Shown here piece after piece: positions 11,141 to 28,374 of a stretch of DNA of 29,539 nt. The number at the start of each line of letters is the position of its first letter. Positions within the stretch are counted from its first letter, which is position 1. The notes under the pieces were generated by a model. The model made no database searches. It had not been told where the DNA came from and saw nothing but the letters and a program-made list of their open reading frames with translations. The position numbers were made by a program, and so were the translations under genes. Origin of the DNA: a virus; IMG/VR virus record IMGVR_UViG_3300035682_000136, positions 1 to 29,539 of that record, one strand, 5' to 3'.

Positions 11141-11689
11141 ATGAGCTGTCTAACTACCGCTGGCATATTGATTGCATGTAAAGAAGCAATCGGAGGTATT
11201 AAAGCCTTATACTTAGGGAATTACGCTACATTTGCAAACACTGCTACCATTAACGGCACAACTAATTTAGTTACTGCTCTTGCTACAGGAAGCGTTTACG
11301 AATTTGAATTACCTAAGCACACAGGATCATTTACAGAAGAGGCTGCTATCAGCATCGAGAATGGCACTGTTTACTATACTCAAACTGTTGTGGCTATGTT
11401 TCATGGCATGACTGCTGCACGTTCACTTGAGCTTCAAAACATTTCTAAAGGTCGTAACGTATTATTCGTACAGGATAATAATGATAACATTTGGATGTGT
11501 GGTTACAAAGATGGCGTAGAGGTTACTGCCTTTACTACAGCTTCAGGAACAGCTAAGGGAGATATGAGTGGCTATACTATTACCTTCACAGGCGAAGAGA
11601 AAGATAAAGCATACTTGTTAGATCAGGATGCAGGAGATACTCCATTCCAAGACTTTGCTACAGTTACTGTAGTTCAAGCTACATTGTAA
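11141..11689 (+). CDS. Putative major tail tube protein
   Basis: 182 residues, beta-rich, with an N-terminus (CLTTAGILIACKEAIGGIKA) and a C-terminal pattern (IWMCGYKDGVEVTAFTTASG, then DMSGYTITFTGEEKDKAYLL) that I associate with a tail-tube-like structural protein of Bacteroidetes phages. It directly follows the capsid gene, has its own AT-rich leader (AACTAATAAATAAAAAATA) and no Shine-Dalgarno, consistent with an abundant virion protein. A head decoration protein is the main alternative. No sheath gene is near, in keeping with a flexible tail. Confidence 0.5.
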   Translation: MSCLTTAGILIACKEAIGGIKALYLGNYATFANTATINGTTNLVTALATGSVYEFELPKHTGSFTEEAAISIENGTVYYTQTVVAMFHGMTAARSLELQNISKGRNVLFVQDNNDNIWMCGYKDGVEVTAFTTASGTAKGDMSGYTITFTGEEKDKAYLLDQDAGDTPFQDFATVTVVQATL

Positions 11690-11713
11690 GTAAAATTGTG
11701 CTATATTTAAAGC

Positions 11714-12124
11714 ATGATTTACTTACTTAAAAATACAGCAGCACAGCTCCTCTACCTTAGTCTTAAGGAAGGGGAGCTTTTGCTTGCTAATACCTATACG
11801 CATTACTTGTTAGAACTAACTAACGAGCAGACACTTGAGAAGCTTTACGCTATCCCAACACAGATAGCTCAGAATGATAGGTATACTACCATTCAGATTG
11901 GCACCAATGCCAACACACCAACAGCTGCGAGCCTACTAATTAACTACCCAGCACGATTCAGCTACGTAGTTTATGGGCAGAATAGCAGCACTAACTTAGA
12001 TCCTACAGATGCTGTTGTGGAAGGGGTAATCCAAATGGGTTATTTAATAGTAGAAGATTTAACTACTCCCCGATTCACTGAGCCGAACTTAACAATAGAT
12101 TCAGATATAGCCTACAATGGATAA
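11714..12124 (+). CDS. Conserved phage structural-region protein, unknown function
   Basis: 136 residues. The arrangement YLLKNTAAQLLYLSLKEGEL at the start and VVYGQNSSTNLDPTDAVVEG near residue 90 is familiar from Bacteroidetes phages, where the gene lies among head/tail genes. It looks like a small beta-sandwich protein. It overlaps the portal gene by 8 bases (12117-12124), so it is translationally coupled to the portal. I do not know its role in the virion. Confidence 0.6.
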   Translation: MIYLLKNTAAQLLYLSLKEGELLLANTYTHYLLELTNEQTLEKLYAIPTQIAQNDRYTTIQIGTNANTPTAASLLINYPARFSYVVYGQNSSTNLDPTDAVVEGVIQMGYLIVEDLTTPRFTEPNLTIDSDIAYNG

Positions 12125-22487: not shown

Positions 22488-23340
22488 AAATGTCATAATC
22501 ACTACTTGCAAGAGTGGAGATAAGTTTTTAATGATGAGCGACCTGCACTGGGATAATCCCCATTGTGATAGAAAGCTATTAAAGGCACACTTAGATAAAT
22601 GCTTAGCTGAAAACATTAGCTTTGCTGTTAATGGAGATTTATTTTGCTGCATGCAGGGCAAGTATGATCCTCGTAGAAGTAAGCAAGACATCTTACCGGA
22701 GCATAACGTAGCTAATTACTTAGATGCCTTAGTTAATACTGCAATAGATTGGTTTAAACCATATGCTCACCTGATGGTATTTGTTGGATATGGTAATCAT
22801 GAGACTGCTATAATAAAGAACTGTGAAACTGATTTAATAGAGCGCTTTGTTAGTGGCCTTAACCGAGAAGCTGGCACTAATGTATTAGTAGGTGGCTATG
22901 GTGGTTGGTGGATACATAGAGTAATGAAAAGCGAAAAGAGTGCCTTAGTGTTTAAAACAAAATACTATCATGGATCAGGAGGAGGAGGAGTAGTTACTAA
23001 GGGAGTTATTCAGAATAACCGAATGGGTGTTATGATAGATGGAGCTGACTGCATTTGGGCAGGCCACGTGCACGAGCTTTACCATCACTCAGATATGGTA
23101 GAGGAATTATGCTATGCTGCAAATGGTGGCTATAGAATCAATATGAGATATGTGCATCACATTAGAACTGCAAGCTATAAAGAAGAGTATGACGAGGGCT
23201 TTATGGGCTTTCACGTTGAACGCATGAGACCTCCTAAACCTTTGGGCGCATATTTGTTACAGTTAGATTTAGAAAGAATAACTAAACCCGTTGACACTAC
23301 ATTAGTAATACCTACTTTTGTGCAATGGAGAGACAAATAA
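22462..23340 (+). CDS. Calcineurin-like metallophosphoesterase
   Basis: 292 residues. All blocks of the two-metal phosphoesterase fold are present: D27-x-H29 (MSDLHWD), G58-D59 (VNGDLF), G111-N112-H113-E114 (GYGNHET), H170 (KYYHGS) and G201-H202-V203-H204 (AGHVHE). Such enzymes in phages may be nucleases (SbcD/Mre11-like) or phosphatases acting on DNA ends or nucleotides; the substrate cannot be told. The Cys pair in LFCCMQ and the long Gly run GSGGGGV are family variations. Its last 16 bases overlap the large terminase gene, suggesting joint expression with DNA packaging. Confidence 0.8.
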   Translation: MITSYREGRNVIITTCKSGDKFLMMSDLHWDNPHCDRKLLKAHLDKCLAENISFAVNGDLFCCMQGKYDPRRSKQDILPEHNVANYLDALVNTAIDWFKPYAHLMVFVGYGNHETAIIKNCETDLIERFVSGLNREAGTNVLVGGYGGWWIHRVMKSEKSALVFKTKYYHGSGGGGVVTKGVIQNNRMGVMIDGADCIWAGHVHELYHHSDMVEELCYAANGGYRINMRYVHHIRTASYKEEYDEGFMGFHVERMRPPKPLGAYLLQLDLERITKPVDTTLVIPTFVQWRDK

Positions 23341-24752
23341 ACTACAATTTTAAACCTCTTACAAGGCAAAGCGAGGCACTTAAATTCTTATCAGTAGATT
23401 CAGACGTTGAAACTATCCTCTATGGAGGAGCTGCAGGCGGTGGAAAGACTATGCTCGGGTGCATGTGGCAGATTCTTAGACGTTTAAAGTATCCAGGTAC
23501 ACGCTCACTAATAGGCCGAGCCAAGTTAGACACGCTTAAAAAGACTACAATGGCTACCTTTTTTCAGGTAGCTAATGAAATAGGGCTTAAAGCAGGAGAG
23601 GATTTTATCTATAATCAGCAAAGCCATATCATTAAGTTCAGCAATGGCAGTGAGATAATCTTAGCCGATTTATTTTTGTATCCATCAGATCCGATGATGA
23701 CCGATTTAGGCGGCCTTGAAATTACAGATGCATTTATAGATGAAGCTACTGAGATAACTGAAAAGGCTTATTCTATTGTTAGCTCACGTATACGGTATAA
23801 GTTAAATCATTTTTGCACTAAATGTTCCGCTCAAGAATTAGACAAAGGCGAAGTAACAAAACAAGATAAAAGTGGTAAAGCTATTGAATGGCTATGCAAA
23901 GTATGTAACCAAAAAAGTAGCGGCTTAAAACCTAAAGTTTTACTATCGTGTAACCCATCTAAAGGGTGGATTTATAACCAATTCTACTTACCTTACAAGA
24001 ATCAGAATCTTCCTGAGCACAGAGCTTTTGTACAAGCATTACCTGGAGATAATATACACTTACCTGATTCATACGTAACAAGCCTCAGCCGATTACCTGA
24101 AGCTGATAGGAAGAGACTCTTAGAAGGAGATTGGGAATTTGATAACAGCAGTGATAGACTTTATCTTTATGAAGAGCTCATGCGCTGTTTTAGAGAGCCT
24201 ATGAACGTAGGAGAGGGTTACATCACAGCAGATATAGCTCGACTTGGAAAGGATAGAACAGTGCTTTGTGTATGGAAAGGATTAAGCTGTATAGATATAG
24301 TAGTGCTGAGGCAGAAGAGACAAGATGAAGTTAAGGCAGAGATACAGCGCTTAATGAATCAGTATAGTGTTAGGCTATCTAATGTACTTGCCGATGCTGA
24401 TGGTGTAGGTGGTGGCTTGGTAGATAGTCTTAGATGCCGAGAGTTTATGAATGGCAGTAAAGCTGTAAGAGGAACTCAGTACATGAATCTAAAAGCTGAC
24501 TGTTACTTTAGATTAGGTGAGTTAATTGATAAGAATGAGATTACCTTCCCTATTAAATGGCAAGAGGATATCTGCAAAGAGCTGGAGTTAATCAGGAGAG
24601 TAGATCCTGATAAGGAAGGAAAGCTAAGAGTAACATCAAAAGATACTATTAGCCAGCGCACCGGAGGGATTAGCCCCGATATAGCAGATGCTATAATGAT
24701 GCGAGCTTACTTTGAGCTTAATCGCAACTACACTAAATACGCATTTATCTAA
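23325..24752 (+). CDS. terL: Terminase large subunit with inserted zinc-knuckle
   Basis: 475 residues. ATPase domain: Walker A GGAAGGGKT at 34-42 and Walker B AFIDEAT with D139/E140; the coupling segment SCNP follows at 208-211. Nuclease domain (RNase H fold): D303 in TADIARLGKD, D357/D359 in LADADGVGGG, and D452/D455 in SPDIADAIMM as third acidic site. It translocates DNA into the prohead and cuts it. Between Walker B and SCNP stands an insertion of about 40 residues with C164-x2-C167 and C191-x2-C194, a zinc-ribbon pattern that most related terminases lack at this place. The gene lies far from the portal and from the small-terminase candidate (27967). Confidence 0.9.
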   Translation: MERQINYNFKPLTRQSEALKFLSVDSDVETILYGGAAGGGKTMLGCMWQILRRLKYPGTRSLIGRAKLDTLKKTTMATFFQVANEIGLKAGEDFIYNQQSHIIKFSNGSEIILADLFLYPSDPMMTDLGGLEITDAFIDEATEITEKAYSIVSSRIRYKLNHFCTKCSAQELDKGEVTKQDKSGKAIEWLCKVCNQKSSGLKPKVLLSCNPSKGWIYNQFYLPYKNQNLPEHRAFVQALPGDNIHLPDSYVTSLSRLPEADRKRLLEGDWEFDNSSDRLYLYEELMRCFREPMNVGEGYITADIARLGKDRTVLCVWKGLSCIDIVVLRQKRQDEVKAEIQRLMNQYSVRLSNVLADADGVGGGLVDSLRCREFMNGSKAVRGTQYMNLKADCYFRLGELIDKNEITFPIKWQEDICKELELIRRVDPDKEGKLRVTSKDTISQRTGGISPDIADAIMMRAYFELNRNYTKYAFI

Positions 24753-24764
24753 GATAACTCCATT

Positions 24765-24803
24765 AAAGTGTTATTTAGCGCACTTTATCGTACTTAAAAG
24801 TGC
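24765..24803 (+). repeat. Alternative hairpins after terL (AAAGTG/CACTTT/AAAGTGC)
   Basis: AAAGTG (24765-24770) can pair with CACTTT (24781-24786), or GCACTTT (24780-24786) with AAAGTGC (24797-24803). The central arm is shared, so only one hairpin forms at a time. There is a short TTTA after the second, too little for a clear terminator. Confidence 0.5.
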
Positions 24804-24858
24804 TTTATGAGGGATATTGCATACTATAATATGGATTAGATGTGATTAATAACATCTT

Positions 24859-24887
24859 TGTCGCAAGTATAGTAGACTTTTGCGACA
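24859..24887. repeat. 8-bp perfect inverted repeat TGTCGCAA / TTGCGACA
   Basis: Arms at 24859-24866 and 24880-24887 with a 13-base spacer that carries the first TATAGTAGA word. It could be a protein operator or a hairpin. Confidence 0.55.
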
Positions 24888-24949
24888 GCTATAGTAGAAA
24901 ATAATCTACAGAATGAGCCTTATAGTGGAAAATAATCTACAAAACTATA
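24868..24949. repeat. Iteron-like TATAGTAGA repeats
   Basis: TATAGTAGA begins at 24868. A 21-base unit starting TATAGTAGAAAATAATCTAC lies at 24890-24910 and repeats with one change at 24921-24941 (period 31). An inverted core ACTATA follows at 24944-24949. Each long unit itself contains a GTAGA/TCTAC (or GTGGA/TCTAC) inverted repeat. Regularly placed direct repeats of this size are typical of initiator or repressor binding sites. Confidence 0.55.
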
Positions 24950-24957
24950 CCCGATAA

Positions 24958-24991
24958 CGTATAATATCTGCTAATATCTGCAAATTATACG
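24958..24991. repeat. Inverted repeat CGTATAAT / ATTATACG with tandem repeat in loop
   Basis: Perfect 8-bp arms at 24958-24965 and 24984-24991. The loop includes ATCTGC twice, from a 10-base tandem TAATATCTGC. The AT-rich tandem inside a stem could be an unwinding element or recognition loop. Confidence 0.5.
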
Positions 24992-25011
24992 CAAAAGGGT
25001 ATAAAACAAAA

Positions 25012-25089
25012 TAGCCCTACACGTTTGTAGAGCTATCCTGTAATCAAATAATCAATATAAGCCTAAACCAAAAGGCTAAAATGGATAGC
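25012..25089 (+). ncRNA. Possible small folded RNA element
   Basis: TAGCCCTAC (25012-25020) pairs with GTAGAGCTA (25027-25035) with one mismatch. Alternatively GCTATCC (25032-25038) pairs with GGATAGC (25083-25089), closing a domain that contains AGCCT/AGGCT (25060-25077 region). Several stems in a short AT-rich stretch suggest an RNA or operator, but without conservation data it stays weak. Confidence 0.3.
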
Positions 25090-25137
25090 CAAATATATCA
25101 CACTTAATACTATGTGCATAAGTATGTGAATAAGATG

Positions 25138-25169
25138 TTGAAAGCAGATAAGTTAATAGTCTAATTTTG
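25138..25169 (+). promoter_or_regulatory. Promoter-like sequence directly before the VRR-NUC gene
   Basis: TTG at 25138-25140, 21 bases, then TAATTTTG at 25162-25169, which matches the -7 consensus TAnnTTTG. The ATG is at 25175, only 5 bases after the box, so transcripts would start almost at the start codon (leaderless or nearly so). Confidence 0.4.
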
Positions 25170-25174
25170 AGCAC

Positions 25175-25522
25175 ATGAAGAATGAAGAGGCACTAATACA
25201 AGAGGCTGTTATTAACTATATCAATGCTCAGTATCCAGGCACTCTTTACTGTGCATCTGCTGGAGGTGTTCGTACTTCCATGAGACAGGCTGTAAAGATG
25301 AAGCGCACAGGTTACGTTAAGGGCTTTCCTGATCTCTTTATCTATGAGCCTCGTGATGCCTTCCATGGCTTAGCTATTGAGATGAAACGAGAAAAGGGAG
25401 GAGTAGTAAGCTTGCACCAAAAGGAATGGCACAAGAAGCTAACTGAGAGGGGATATTTCTGCGCTATTTGTAAAGGCTTTGATGAGGCTAAATTAATTAT
25501 AGATGAGTACCTACACCTCTGA
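25175..25522 (+). CDS. VRR-NUC domain nuclease
   Basis: 115 residues, the usual length for stand-alone VRR-NUC proteins. The PD-(D/E)xK core is visible: E9 in the first helix, GFPDLFIY (D53), then AIEMKRE (E69, K71) and LHQKEWHKKLTERGY, the Q/W-containing helix typical for this family. VRR-NUC enzymes cut branched DNA such as Holliday junctions, and in phages they may resolve replication or packaging intermediates. It overlaps the sigma-like gene by 20 bases. Confidence 0.85.
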   Translation: MKNEEALIQEAVINYINAQYPGTLYCASAGGVRTSMRQAVKMKRTGYVKGFPDLFIYEPRDAFHGLAIEMKREKGGVVSLHQKEWHKKLTERGYFCAICKGFDEAKLIIDEYLHL

Positions 25523-26003
25523 AATTAATAGATGCTATGCCGAATGGCGCAGAGTAGCAGCAACTGTTACCCGGTTAGATTTAGCTGATGAGCTGCTGCA
25601 TGACACTTTGCTTAAGATATTAGAATCAGATAAAGATAAGCTGCAGGATATCCATGATAGGGGTAAGCTGAACAATTACGTTAGCAATGCTATTAGACTA
25701 TCTGCACGCTGTAGTAACAGCTCATTTAACTACACTCGTTTAAGATTCGAGAAGATACGCAACGATTTGAAAGATGATATCATAGATGATGTGAATAAGA
25801 GCGTAGGCATGCGTTTAGAAAATGAGCAGTTAGATATATTTATAAGCAGGCTGCCATATTTTGAGAGAGAGCTATTCTTTCTCTATGCCTTAGATGATTT
25901 CTCTTATCAGGAGTTAGCTAAAGAAACAGGCATTCCTCTTAACTATCTTTACCGCACAATTAAGAAAGCTAAAGTAACACTTAGAAACTCGTTACAAATA
26001 TGA
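25503..26003 (+). CDS. Sigma-70-like transcription factor
   Basis: 166 residues. The C-terminal part (LPYFERELFFLYALDDFSYQ then ELAKETGIPLNYLYRTIKKA) is a region-4 helix-turn-helix of ECF-type sigma factors. The N-terminal part has a DELLHDTLLKILES segment similar to region 2. Such small sigma-like proteins recur in Bacteroidetes phages. It may direct host RNA polymerase to late genes, for which I found no consensus promoter. The next gene overlaps by 4 bases. Confidence 0.65.
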   Translation: MSTYTSEINRCYAEWRRVAATVTRLDLADELLHDTLLKILESDKDKLQDIHDRGKLNNYVSNAIRLSARCSNSSFNYTRLRFEKIRNDLKDDIIDDVNKSVGMRLENEQLDIFISRLPYFERELFFLYALDDFSYQELAKETGIPLNYLYRTIKKAKVTLRNSLQI

Positions 26004-26518: not shown

Positions 26519-26706
26519 CTATACTTATCATCTACTTAGTAGGCTTCCTACTGCACACTGGCATTCTAAGCTTTAACATCTACAGACATCAGAGACACCT
26601 ATCTAACTTCCATTGGTATGCTTACATAGGTGTTATCTTTACAGGCTTTGTATGGCTGCCTTTTTGGGTGTACATTACTGTGCTACGTTTTCAACAGCCA
26701 AAATAG
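26515..26706 (+). CDS. Small membrane protein with two helices
   Basis: 63 residues with two hydrophobic segments (IIYLVGFLLHTGILSFNIYR and WYAYIGVIFTGFVWLPFWVY) separated by a His/Arg loop. Last gene of its block; it overlaps the preceding gene by 4 bases. No family recognised. Confidence 0.55.
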   Translation: MTILIIYLVGFLLHTGILSFNIYRHQRHLSNFHWYAYIGVIFTGFVWLPFWVYITVLRFQQPK

Positions 26707-26745
26707 TTTTGCACAAATTAACTGAGTGACATTTTTATTTATAGA

Positions 26746-26776
26746 TTTGTCATAGGGTGGTATTACTGTAGATTTG
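26746..26776 (+). promoter_or_regulatory. Bacteroidetes-type promoter before noncoding region
   Basis: TAGATTTG occurs twice, at 26742-26749 and 26769-26776. The TTTG of the first copy serves as -33 box for the second with a 19-base spacer, giving TTTG-N19-TAGATTTG, an exact fit to TTTG-N19-TAnnTTTG. Start of transcription would be near 26782, followed by no open frame for about 410 bases. Confidence 0.65.
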
Positions 26777-26781
26777 ATTTA

Positions 26782-27165
26782 AGGTTTTATACGCCCTTTG
26801 GATGTTCTCACCCTGCATCCTTAGGGCTATATTTTTTACAGAGGGAAGCGTTTAACAGCAGTGTAAAGAATGAATTGAGCTACTGCGGGATAGTAACACA
26901 GCTCAGGGGTATGGCTAAGGTATAAGCCCCAGGTTACTTAGGGATGGCAATATCTCTAAAAGGTAGATACCAGGTTAGTGCACATTGCTGATGACACTAA
27001 TACATGATGGCGAAGCACTCAAGCGACAAGCATGAGAACAGTCATTTTGAATGAGAGCCCAACACTTAGAGCAATCTTTGTGAAGGATACTTCTATCTCT
27101 CATTTAGCTCAGCATCTAAGCTCTAAGCATTAAGTTAATTAGCTAAAAGCTTAAAGCTAATTAGC
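26782..27165 (+). ncRNA. Candidate large structured noncoding RNA
   Basis: No frame of useful length occurs here, yet perfect inverted repeats are frequent. In order: hairpin 26793-26827; TTTACA/TGTAAA (26835-26840, 26862-26867); TGAGCT/AGCTCA (26876-26881, 26900-26905); AGTAAC/GTTACT (26892-26897, 26933-26938) enclosing GGGG/CCCC (26906-26909, 26927-26930); TATCT/AGATA (26951-26955, 26965-26969); TTAGTG/CACTAA (26975-26980, 26995-27000); AATGAGAG/CTCTCATT (27050-27057, 27097-27104); CTTAGAGC/GCTCTAAG (27065-27072, 27120-27127); TAATTAGCT/AGCTAATTA (27136-27144, 27155-27163). Two pairs of helices cross, which would be pseudoknots or alternative folds. A promoter stands at the 5' end. The region is richer in G and C than other intergenic parts. 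It does not match tRNA, tmRNA, RNase P or group I/II intron signatures I know. Confidence 0.55.
26793..26837 (+). terminator. Hairpin with U-tract at the 5' end of the noncoding region
   Basis: GCCCT-TT-GGATG (26793-26804) pairs with CATCC-TT-AGGGC (26816-26827), two 5-bp helices around a TT/TT internal loop, followed by TATA and T6 (26832-26837). It may end transcription from 25175-26706. As it also lies about 10 bases after the predicted start of the promoter at 26746, it would act as an attenuator or as first stem of the RNA. Confidence 0.55.
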
Positions 27166-27193
27166 ATAAGCTAACTAATTAATAAACTAACTT

Positions 27194-27343
27194 ATGAATG
27201 ATAATAAGTATAACTTTTTGAGGGCACAAGTCAAAATGTTTAATCCTAACTTCACAGATAAAGAAATTGATAAGGAGTGCGAAAGAATATTAAATGCAGG
27301 TGAGGGTGGAGAGGATGAGAGCTGCCTTTATTGTGGATCGTAA
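27194..27343 (+). CDS. 49-residue acidic protein with C-terminal CxxC
   Basis: ATG at 27194 behind an AT-rich leader (AATTAATAAACTAACTT). 49 codons: a helical first part (FLRAQVKMFNPNFTDKEIDK), Gly/Glu-rich middle and ending ESCLYCGS. The CLYC pair plus C29 could bind metal. It is the first gene after the noncoding structured region. No family recognised. Confidence 0.45.
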   Translation: MNDNKYNFLRAQVKMFNPNFTDKEIDKECERILNAGEGGEDESCLYCGS

Positions 27344-27620: not shown

Positions 27621-27970
27621 TATTAATACCAGCACAGCTTGAATCTGTAGGCACAAGAAAAGATAAGACTCTTAAGCTGACCTTTGGCACTAACGAGCTC
27701 ACACCTTCTCAGGCTGCTGAACTGTTCGGTACAGCCAATCAGTTCGGTTACTTAGCTTTTAAAGATGAGAGCTTTAGACGTGAGGAGCTGGATGCAGTAG
27801 AGAGCCTTAAATCAGAGTTAGAAGATACACTTAAAAAACCATCTCAAAGATTAAGAGGTATAATGTTTAGAGTTTATGAAGCTGATTCAGAGGGATTTAC
27901 TACCTTTGCTAAATACTATGACTCGAAGATGGAACAGTTAATAACACACTTTAAGAATAAGTTAGCATGA
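27617..27970 (+). CDS. Conserved Bacteroidetes-phage protein, unknown
   Basis: 117 residues. The run ELTPSQAAELFGTANQFGYL, then KDESFRREELDAVESLKSEL, and a C-terminal helix with KYYDSKMEQLITHFKNKL are familiar from proteins encoded next to the small terminase in these phages. Function unknown; perhaps recombination or packaging. Coupled by ATGA to the small-terminase-like gene. Confidence 0.6.
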   Translation: MILIPAQLESVGTRKDKTLKLTFGTNELTPSQAAELFGTANQFGYLAFKDESFRREELDAVESLKSELEDTLKKPSQRLRGIMFRVYEADSEGFTTFAKYYDSKMEQLITHFKNKLA

Positions 27971-28374
27971 GTGAGGAGCAGGAACAAAACGTAACAATCA
28001 AAAAAGATGCTATGCTTCAGGCACTTACATCTTCTTTAGGCAATGTTACAGAAGCCTCAGAGAAGATAGGTATCTCTCGCAAGACTCACTATGAATGGCT
28101 TAAAGATGATGCTGAGTATAGTGCAGCAGTAGCTTCACTAAAGAATGTAGCTTTAGACTTTGCTGAGTCGCAACTTAAGAAGCTGATGGAAGGAGCAGAG
28201 CGCCAAGCATTAACTCACGATGGTGAGATAGTAACAATTAAAGATGCACCTAACACAAGTGCCATTATCTTTTATCTTAAGACTCAAGGTAAGCAACGAG
28301 GGTACATAGAGAGGCAAGAGCTTAGCACTGAGATAAAGAGCATTAACATAACCATAGATGGTACAAATATTTAA
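27967..28374 (+). CDS. Terminase small subunit-like HTH protein
   Basis: 135 residues. N-terminal helix-turn-helix of the homeodomain/phBC6A51 type: LGNVTEASEKIGISRKTHYE then WLKDDAEYSAAVASLKNVAL. A central helix for oligomerisation (AESQLKKLMEGAE) and the C-terminal motif APNTSAIIFYLKTQGKQRGY followed by ERQELS complete the family pattern. It would recognise the packaging site and assist the large terminase, which in this genome lies about 3.2 kb upstream rather than next to it. Confidence 0.7.
   Translation: MSEEQEQNVTIKKDAMLQALTSSLGNVTEASEKIGISRKTHYEWLKDDAEYSAAVASLKNVALDFAESQLKKLMEGAERQALTHDGEIVTIKDAPNTSAIIFYLKTQGKQRGYIERQELSTEIKSINITIDGTNI

Follow-up and report, generated by a model that had tools for sequence, protein, structure and literature searches.

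A phage-borne structured RNA homologous to the RF02932 class, and its alternation with a second RNA at a two-allele locus

Introduction

The put RNA of HK022 is short and acts in cis on RNA polymerase. It belongs to the structured RNAs of early phage transcripts (PMC9378689). ROOL and GOLLD form multimers or compartments that consist of RNA only (PMC12286853). The family most relevant to this study is Rfam RF02932, "Betaproteobacteria-1", which is represented by a model of 120 positions. The literature searched yielded no paper on RF02932; it did not extend to the original description of the family, and our claim of novelty is therefore made with some reserve.

Here, we analyzed a DNA window of 29,539 nucleotides from an uncultured Bacteroidota-type phage (IMG/VR record IMGVR_UViG_3300035682_000136, complete stretch), in which the initial annotation had proposed an undescribed, large structured noncoding RNA with its own promoter. 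Covariation across 31 homologues supports a structured noncoding RNA that has its own conserved, promoter-like element, although the reasons originally given, repeat density and a consensus promoter, did not hold. Nor is the RNA entirely undescribed, since its core is homologous to RF02932 at a sub-threshold score. However, the Rfam entry covers neither the 5' pseudoknot and the 3' extension nor the wide distribution among phages and the alternation with another RNA.

Results

A gene-free slot with weak single-sequence statistics

The RNA is located in an intergenic slot of 487 bp, with no plus-strand ORF of at least 40 amino acids between positions 26706 and 27194 (Table 1). The gap in this gene-packed genome is thus real but not unique, since the segment 24753-25174 (422 bp) is likewise gene-free. 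The latter is a candidate replication origin with imperfect repeats and a low folding energy. Two adjacent DnaA-box-like sites are found on its reverse strand, at 25121 and 25133, and a DnaA C-terminal-domain protein is encoded by the same phage (18825-19364). The slot is also less AT-rich, as had been noted, with a GC content of 0.38 as compared to 0.31 in the other long gap. As previously suggested, it contains no tRNA or tmRNA according to ARAGORN and no signature of RNase P, an intron or a retron, in that none of the Rfam families exceeded its gathering score anywhere in the window when scanned with cmscan. MicroRNA-like Rfam matches on the antisense strand were discarded as AT-rich chance matches.

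Inverted repeats had been described as much denser in the slot than elsewhere. Counting perfect stems of at least 6 bp with loops of 3-20 nucleotides, we found 3 in the slot, and 41 of 157 equal-sized windows have at least 3. The inverted repeat at approximately 27133-27163 falls within a variable linker, outside the conserved RNA. The minimum free energy of the stretch on the plus strand was -109.9 (z -2.54), a value reached by none of 100 shuffled sequences, and the minus strand gave a z of -1.0. However, the plus strand ranked only 18th of 154 windows by fold z across the whole window. The lowest fold z, -4.8 on the plus strand and -3.3 on the minus strand, was observed at 11521-11904, which spans the end of the gene at 11141-11689, a gap of 24 nucleotides and the start of the gene at 11714-12124. 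A sigma70-type promoter proposed at 26747-26774 (TTGTCA-16-TAGATT) was rejected because such matches occur at chance level (4 found, 3.4 expected). Taken alone, these weak statistics on folding, repeats and promoter would have let the case fail. The unremarkable folding rank is what an ordinary intergenic stretch with fortuitous hairpins would give, but that reading has a negligible probability, as it is already refuted by the compensatory changes and contradicted by the reciprocal homology described below.

Promoter element and genomic neighbors

Promoters of Bacteroidota are known to contain a -7 element of the form TAnnTTTG, and the putative promoter function of the element in Table 1 is based on this resemblance. 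The -7-like element was present as TAnATTTGT in all 63 distinct slots, including both of the allele types (A and B) described below. Since it is conserved at 26742-26749, the transcript probably starts near 26751-26757, approximately 30 nucleotides before the start at 26782 suggested earlier.

The slot is flanked by the genes for TerL (23325-24752) and a terminase-small-subunit-type HTH protein (27967-28374), and the downstream genes, from a 49-amino-acid gene through the terminase small subunit, are co-directional with the RNA. No U-run terminator was found after the RNA. The gene at 25503-26003, just upstream, encodes a short sigma factor that contains sigma-70 region 4, which may point to a transcription programme of the phage's own. 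In some relatives, the RNA is directly followed by a small ORF that by eye is HAD-like (L004, L008, L036, L052, L055 and L080) or HNH-like (L015, L020 and L063). In one contig (L002:3930-4701), the RNA ends after approximately 315 nucleotides of the query and is fused to the terminase small-subunit region in reverse-complement orientation, a junction that represents either an inversion or an assembly chimera.

Covariation supports a large pseudoknotted RNA

BLASTN searches with the region identified no relatives among cultured phages. About 60 distinct relatives of the locus were collected using relatives of TerL and an exact 28-mer. The 31 homologues with the type A RNA were aligned (alignment A2, mean column identity 89%), and a model with 13 helices, three pseudoknots and one loop-loop kiss among them, was derived from the window sequence and then counted on this alignment. 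Across the 80 pairs of the model, 96.4% of the cells were paired, and two-sided changes were observed at 17 pairs. The number of two-sided cells was 125, as compared to 38.4 +/- 5 in shuffled controls and at most 29 when the model was slid along the alignment.

Table 1. Features of the RNA locus, in coordinates of the window.
Feature	Position	Strand	Remarks
Intergenic slot with RNA gene (type A allele)	26707-27193	+	No same-strand ORF
TAGATTTG, Bacteroidota-type -7 promoter element (TAnnTTTG)	26742-26749	+	Putative promoter of the RNA
Conserved RNA (type A)	26753-27128	+	About 380 bases; predicted 5' end about 26751-26757; conserved to about 27128
PK0, 5' strand: leader pairing with P0 loop 26809-26815	26753-26759	+	Alternative allele pairs
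P0 hairpin (26793-97/26823-27, 26800-04/26816-20), then T-rich run	26793-26827	+	4 pairs with two-sided changes
Match to RF02932 "Betaproteobacteria-1", end to end	26831-26934	+	29.9 bits against a gathering score of 49.4
P1 hairpin (26831-40/26862-71), loop motif AACAGCAG	26831-26871	+	100% paired; 2 pairs with two-sided changes
P1/P2 loop-loop kiss, GCAG (26858-61)/CTGC (26883-86)	26858-26886	+	100% paired in A2
P2 hairpin, loop motif ACTGCGGGATAG	26877-26904	+	Invariant in A2
P4 pseudoknot, P2-loop AGTAAC (26892-97) with GTTACT (26933-38)	26892-26938	+	100% paired, invariant
P3 hairpin, loop TATGGCTAAGGTAT (class motif GGCnAAG)	26906-26930	+	2 of 4 pairs with two-sided changes
PK3 pseudoknot, P3-loop GGTAT (26919-23) with ATACC (26967-71)	26919-26971	+	100% paired, invariant in A2
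P5 hairpin	26939-26958	+	2 pairs with two-sided changes, one with UA, AU and GC
P6 hairpin	26975-27000	+	99.5% paired, nearly invariant
P7 helix (27050-57/27097-104) enclosing P8 (27063-70/27075-82)	27050-27104	+	
Variable AGCT-rich linker before next gene	27129-27193	+	Length and sequence differ among relatives; outside conserved RNA

Hairpins P0, P1, P3, P5 and P8 were well supported by covariation in A2, with two-sided changes at 5 pairs of P8; the enclosing P7 was nearly invariant. In the P1/P2 kiss, one pair varied on both sides, and the same columns pair in an independent alignment of the wider class. P4, PK3, P2 and P6 were almost invariant in A2, so that this group of sequences provides no test of them, and the invariance of P4 there is neutral evidence. 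In members of the wider class, we noted by eye GTAGA/TCTAC, GTTGG/CCAAC and GGTTC/GAACC as equivalents of P4, and the equivalent of PK3 covaries (columns 108-112/130-134, 15 two-sided changes at one pair). The P0 hairpin together with its T-rich run is terminator-like by pattern only.

The leader pairing PK0 was formed in 24 of the 31 rows of A2, and the other 7 were off by one column. As read from the alignments, the type A alleles are AGGGTG/CACCCT and TGTGTGA/TCACACA, and the type B alleles ATGCGC/GCGCAT, ATGCGAC/GTCGCAT and ATGCGAAA/TTTCGCAT. PK0 is thus represented by several mutually exclusive sequence pairs over the two types. The alignments show that 26753-27128 is the gene of a large structured RNA, which belongs to a class carried by phages.

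The core is homologous to RF02932

The core of the RNA matched RF02932 colinearly over model positions 1-120 of 120, with the P1, P2 and P3 loop motifs present. The E-value was 8e-4 in a permissive search and 1.0e-5 in a search of the record alone. The gathering score of 49.4 was reached neither by the window (29.9) nor by its best relative, L028 (38.4).

The relationship was further analyzed with two independently built covariance models. Model R1 comprised 24 phage and chromosomal members of the class, with the window relatives left out, and matched the window at the same place as RF02932 with an E-value of 1e-4 (1.5e-6 for relatives, L014). Model R2 was built from the window relatives only and matched, at the RF02932 place, the class members L130 (1.9e-10) and L262 (3e-6), the latter chromosomal. 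The match to L262 is not explained by selection, because this copy originates from a search of genomes with RF02932 rather than from the loop-motif pattern search, which had retrieved diverse viral contigs of the class. These reciprocal profile matches confirm common ancestry with RF02932. In the wide alignment, the P1/P2 kiss and the P3-loop pseudoknot display compensatory changes, and they correspond to GCAG/CTGC and GGTAT/ATACC of the window.

The window RNA and RF02932 have the same order of hairpins and the same loop motifs (P1, GG.CGG..AACGGCAG; P2, CTGYGGGAnAG; P3, GGCnAAG), and in the wide alignment they also agree in the kiss and the pseudoknots. In the shared core, three hairpins are connected through the P1/P2 kiss and two more long-range helices. 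In contrast, the Bacteroidota-type host of the phage, the extra P5 hairpin and the RNA's own 5' (P0/PK0) and 3' (P6-P8) domains set the window RNA apart, the latter domains being absent from the Rfam model. Judged by these profiles, the window RNA is a homologous, divergent and longer branch, and by the curated score it is strictly no member of RF02932. We consider the relation to the RF02932 class, together with the RNA nature of the element, to be very probable.

Two alternative RNAs occupy the same slot

Among 46 distinct intact slots, 27 contained the type A RNA and 19 a different RNA, type B; both or neither were found in none. Loci collected via TerL alone comprised 25 of type A, 26 of type B and 30 that were truncated or untyped, again with none containing both. 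The two types have the promoter, the leader and the P0/PK0 hairpin in common, after which they diverge completely. On the TerL tree, the type label changes 12 times, and at least 8 of these changes are forced by well-supported branches. Thus, types A and B have been swapped at least 8 times.

Type B is a structured RNA with no relation to type A that occupies this slot (for example L048:5541-5993, with divergent members in L272, L295 and L293). It was not matched by R1 even with the filters turned off, and we rejected the idea that it represents a hidden relative of type A. A comparison of type B with Rfam also gave no match. The 3' end of type B consists of an invariant polypyrimidine mirror repeat, CTTTTCTTTCTTTTTCTTTTTACCTTTTTTCTTTTTCTTTCTTTTC, of which 46 nucleotides were matched exactly in 45 stretches even where the body of the RNA had diverged. 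The repeat is thus better conserved than the surrounding type B RNA. Polypyrimidine mirror repeats are a type of sequence that is able to form triplex DNA. In L015 and L063, the start codon of the HNH-like ORF is located a few bases past the polypyrimidine tract.

The class is common in phages and recurs on bacterial chromosomes

Of the 10 viral contigs tested, 8 scored 82-96 bits to RF02932, as did Acidovorax phage AP1 and MW202545. Phage contigs commonly contain RNAs of this class, in most cases next to early or replication genes. They directly follow a Toprim primase gene in L124, L151, L162, L251, L256, AP1 and MW202545 and precede a primase-helicase gene in L133/L152; elsewhere, they are found near CI and small HTH genes, and one copy adjoins a Tad2-like anti-defence gene. 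Complementarity of 7-10 bp between leader and loop, resembling P0/PK0, was also found in phages with other hosts (L115, L159, L255, L260, L233 and L145), but single-sequence shuffling gave p-values from 0.002 to 0.38, which makes a class-wide module only suggestive. One contig with a class member also displayed matches to C4 antisense RNA and isrK (L162:1221-1411).

In Burkholderiaceae, where the RNAs are located in chromosomal islands, RF02932 scored over the cut-off in 37 of 299 genomes. A sample of 369 genomes from the whole taxonomic class of G001 contained none; the chromosomal copies are thus concentrated in Burkholderiaceae. Many of these genomes contain two co-oriented copies located 3-40 kb apart (genomes of L327, L330, L338 and L346). 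In L328 and L339, the homology breaks off sharply at GACGCTGGCT, a pattern that resembles the integration of an island into the RNA gene. The genes adjacent to the chromosomal copies are not shared among them, the neighbors are located on both strands, and several copies face converging genes. The unshared adjacent genes favor a stand-alone RNA.

Two chromosomal copies (L263:7136-7296 and L262:7631-7788) have Hma defence genes and a restriction-modification system of type IIG as neighbors and are located among candidate defence genes of the PDC-S31, PLD and caspase-like kinds. A prophage origin of the chromosomal copies was rejected, as the neighboring genes checked, namely those for Mn-catalase and Ku/LigD and defence genes, were not phage genes; however, the copy in L342 follows by 10 nucleotides an ORF of 284 amino acids, equal in size to the Toprim primase of L162. 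The neighborhoods in defence islands may reflect nothing but integration hot spots.

Discussion

We propose that the RNA would be transcribed from its own Bacteroidota-type promoter at 26742 as a stand-alone RNA, the 5' end of which would be sealed by pairing of the leader with the loop of the first hairpin. It would then act in trans, early in infection, most likely with its kissing-loop core presented to a protein or an RNA machine of the host, so that the RNA would be a structured decoy, an inhibitor or a scaffold in the conflict between phage and host. That the body has repeatedly been exchanged for type B, while promoter and 5' hairpin stayed the same, fits selection for alternative specificities. 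Apart from the last step, the conflict, this explanation as a whole is likely. Stand-alone action in trans is somewhat favored, because the Burkholderiaceae copies share no adjacent genes and have neighbors on both strands. A role in conflict or host takeover is a tentative suggestion; it is based on the copies that adjoin Hma genes, restriction-modification genes, PDC candidates and the Tad2-like anti-defence gene. More doubtful still is the idea that types A and B represent interchangeable modules, which recombination swaps because the specificity of a counter-defence or phage-exclusion system based on RNA depends on them.

The RNA is co-directional in an operon without an obvious terminator, here and in many other phages, and a role in cis is therefore possible. 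It could be the 5' part of the downstream mRNA, either modifying RNA polymerase in the manner of put or controlling translation. Its promoter element, the HAD-like and HNH-like ORFs directly behind it in relatives and its position in the early operons of many phages agree with such a leader; like put, it is by gene position a structured RNA of early phage transcripts. However, the class RNA is much larger than put and also exists as isolated chromosomal genes with no conserved downstream gene, several of them facing converging genes, and in L254 a CI repressor gene converges on it. We consider the leader function unlikely.

The location of several class members beside primase genes suggests replication rather than conflict. 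At least 8 members, AP1 included, adjoin Toprim primase or primase-helicase genes, as would be expected of a primer precursor, an origin RNA or a primase partner. In the window phage, however, no recognized primase gene is located near the RNA, the candidate origin with DnaA boxes is found elsewhere (24753-25174), and the chromosomal copies checked are not near replication genes, all of which renders a replication RNA improbable.

Assembly into an RNA-only multimer or compartment is equally improbable. Similar to ROOL and GOLLD, the RNA is large, phage-borne and pseudoknotted with conserved kissing loops (PMC12286853), and it may stand alone with a kiss that could be intermolecular. It differs by its length of approximately 380 nucleotides, as compared to 600-900, and by its location away from tRNA islands. 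Moreover, the Rfam models of ROOL, GOLLD and OLE gave no match at the gathering score in the window and none up to an E-value of 5 in 26700-27250.

Even less probable is a packaging RNA similar to the phi29 pRNA, or a DNA packaging site. The terminase genes on either side and the loop-loop pairing would fit, but the pRNA covariance model matched neither the window nor 26700-27250, and most class members are located away from packaging genes, in early regions or on bacterial chromosomes.

What is new is a divergent, longer variant of a known but unexplained RNA family and, unexpectedly, a locus with two RNA alleles. The Rfam family, until now an orphan listed as an sRNA of betaproteobacteria, becomes a broad class of RNAs that phages carry and that has a defined, pseudoknotted core; a cultured carrier, Acidovorax phage AP1, is available to test function. 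The alternation of one of two RNAs within a single phage group is a natural allele-swap experiment, and it hints that the task of the RNA involves specificity rather than fixed housekeeping. If the modules do set the specificity of a counter-defence or exclusion system, the RF02932-class RNAs in phages and those in bacterial defence islands would be two sides of one conflict.
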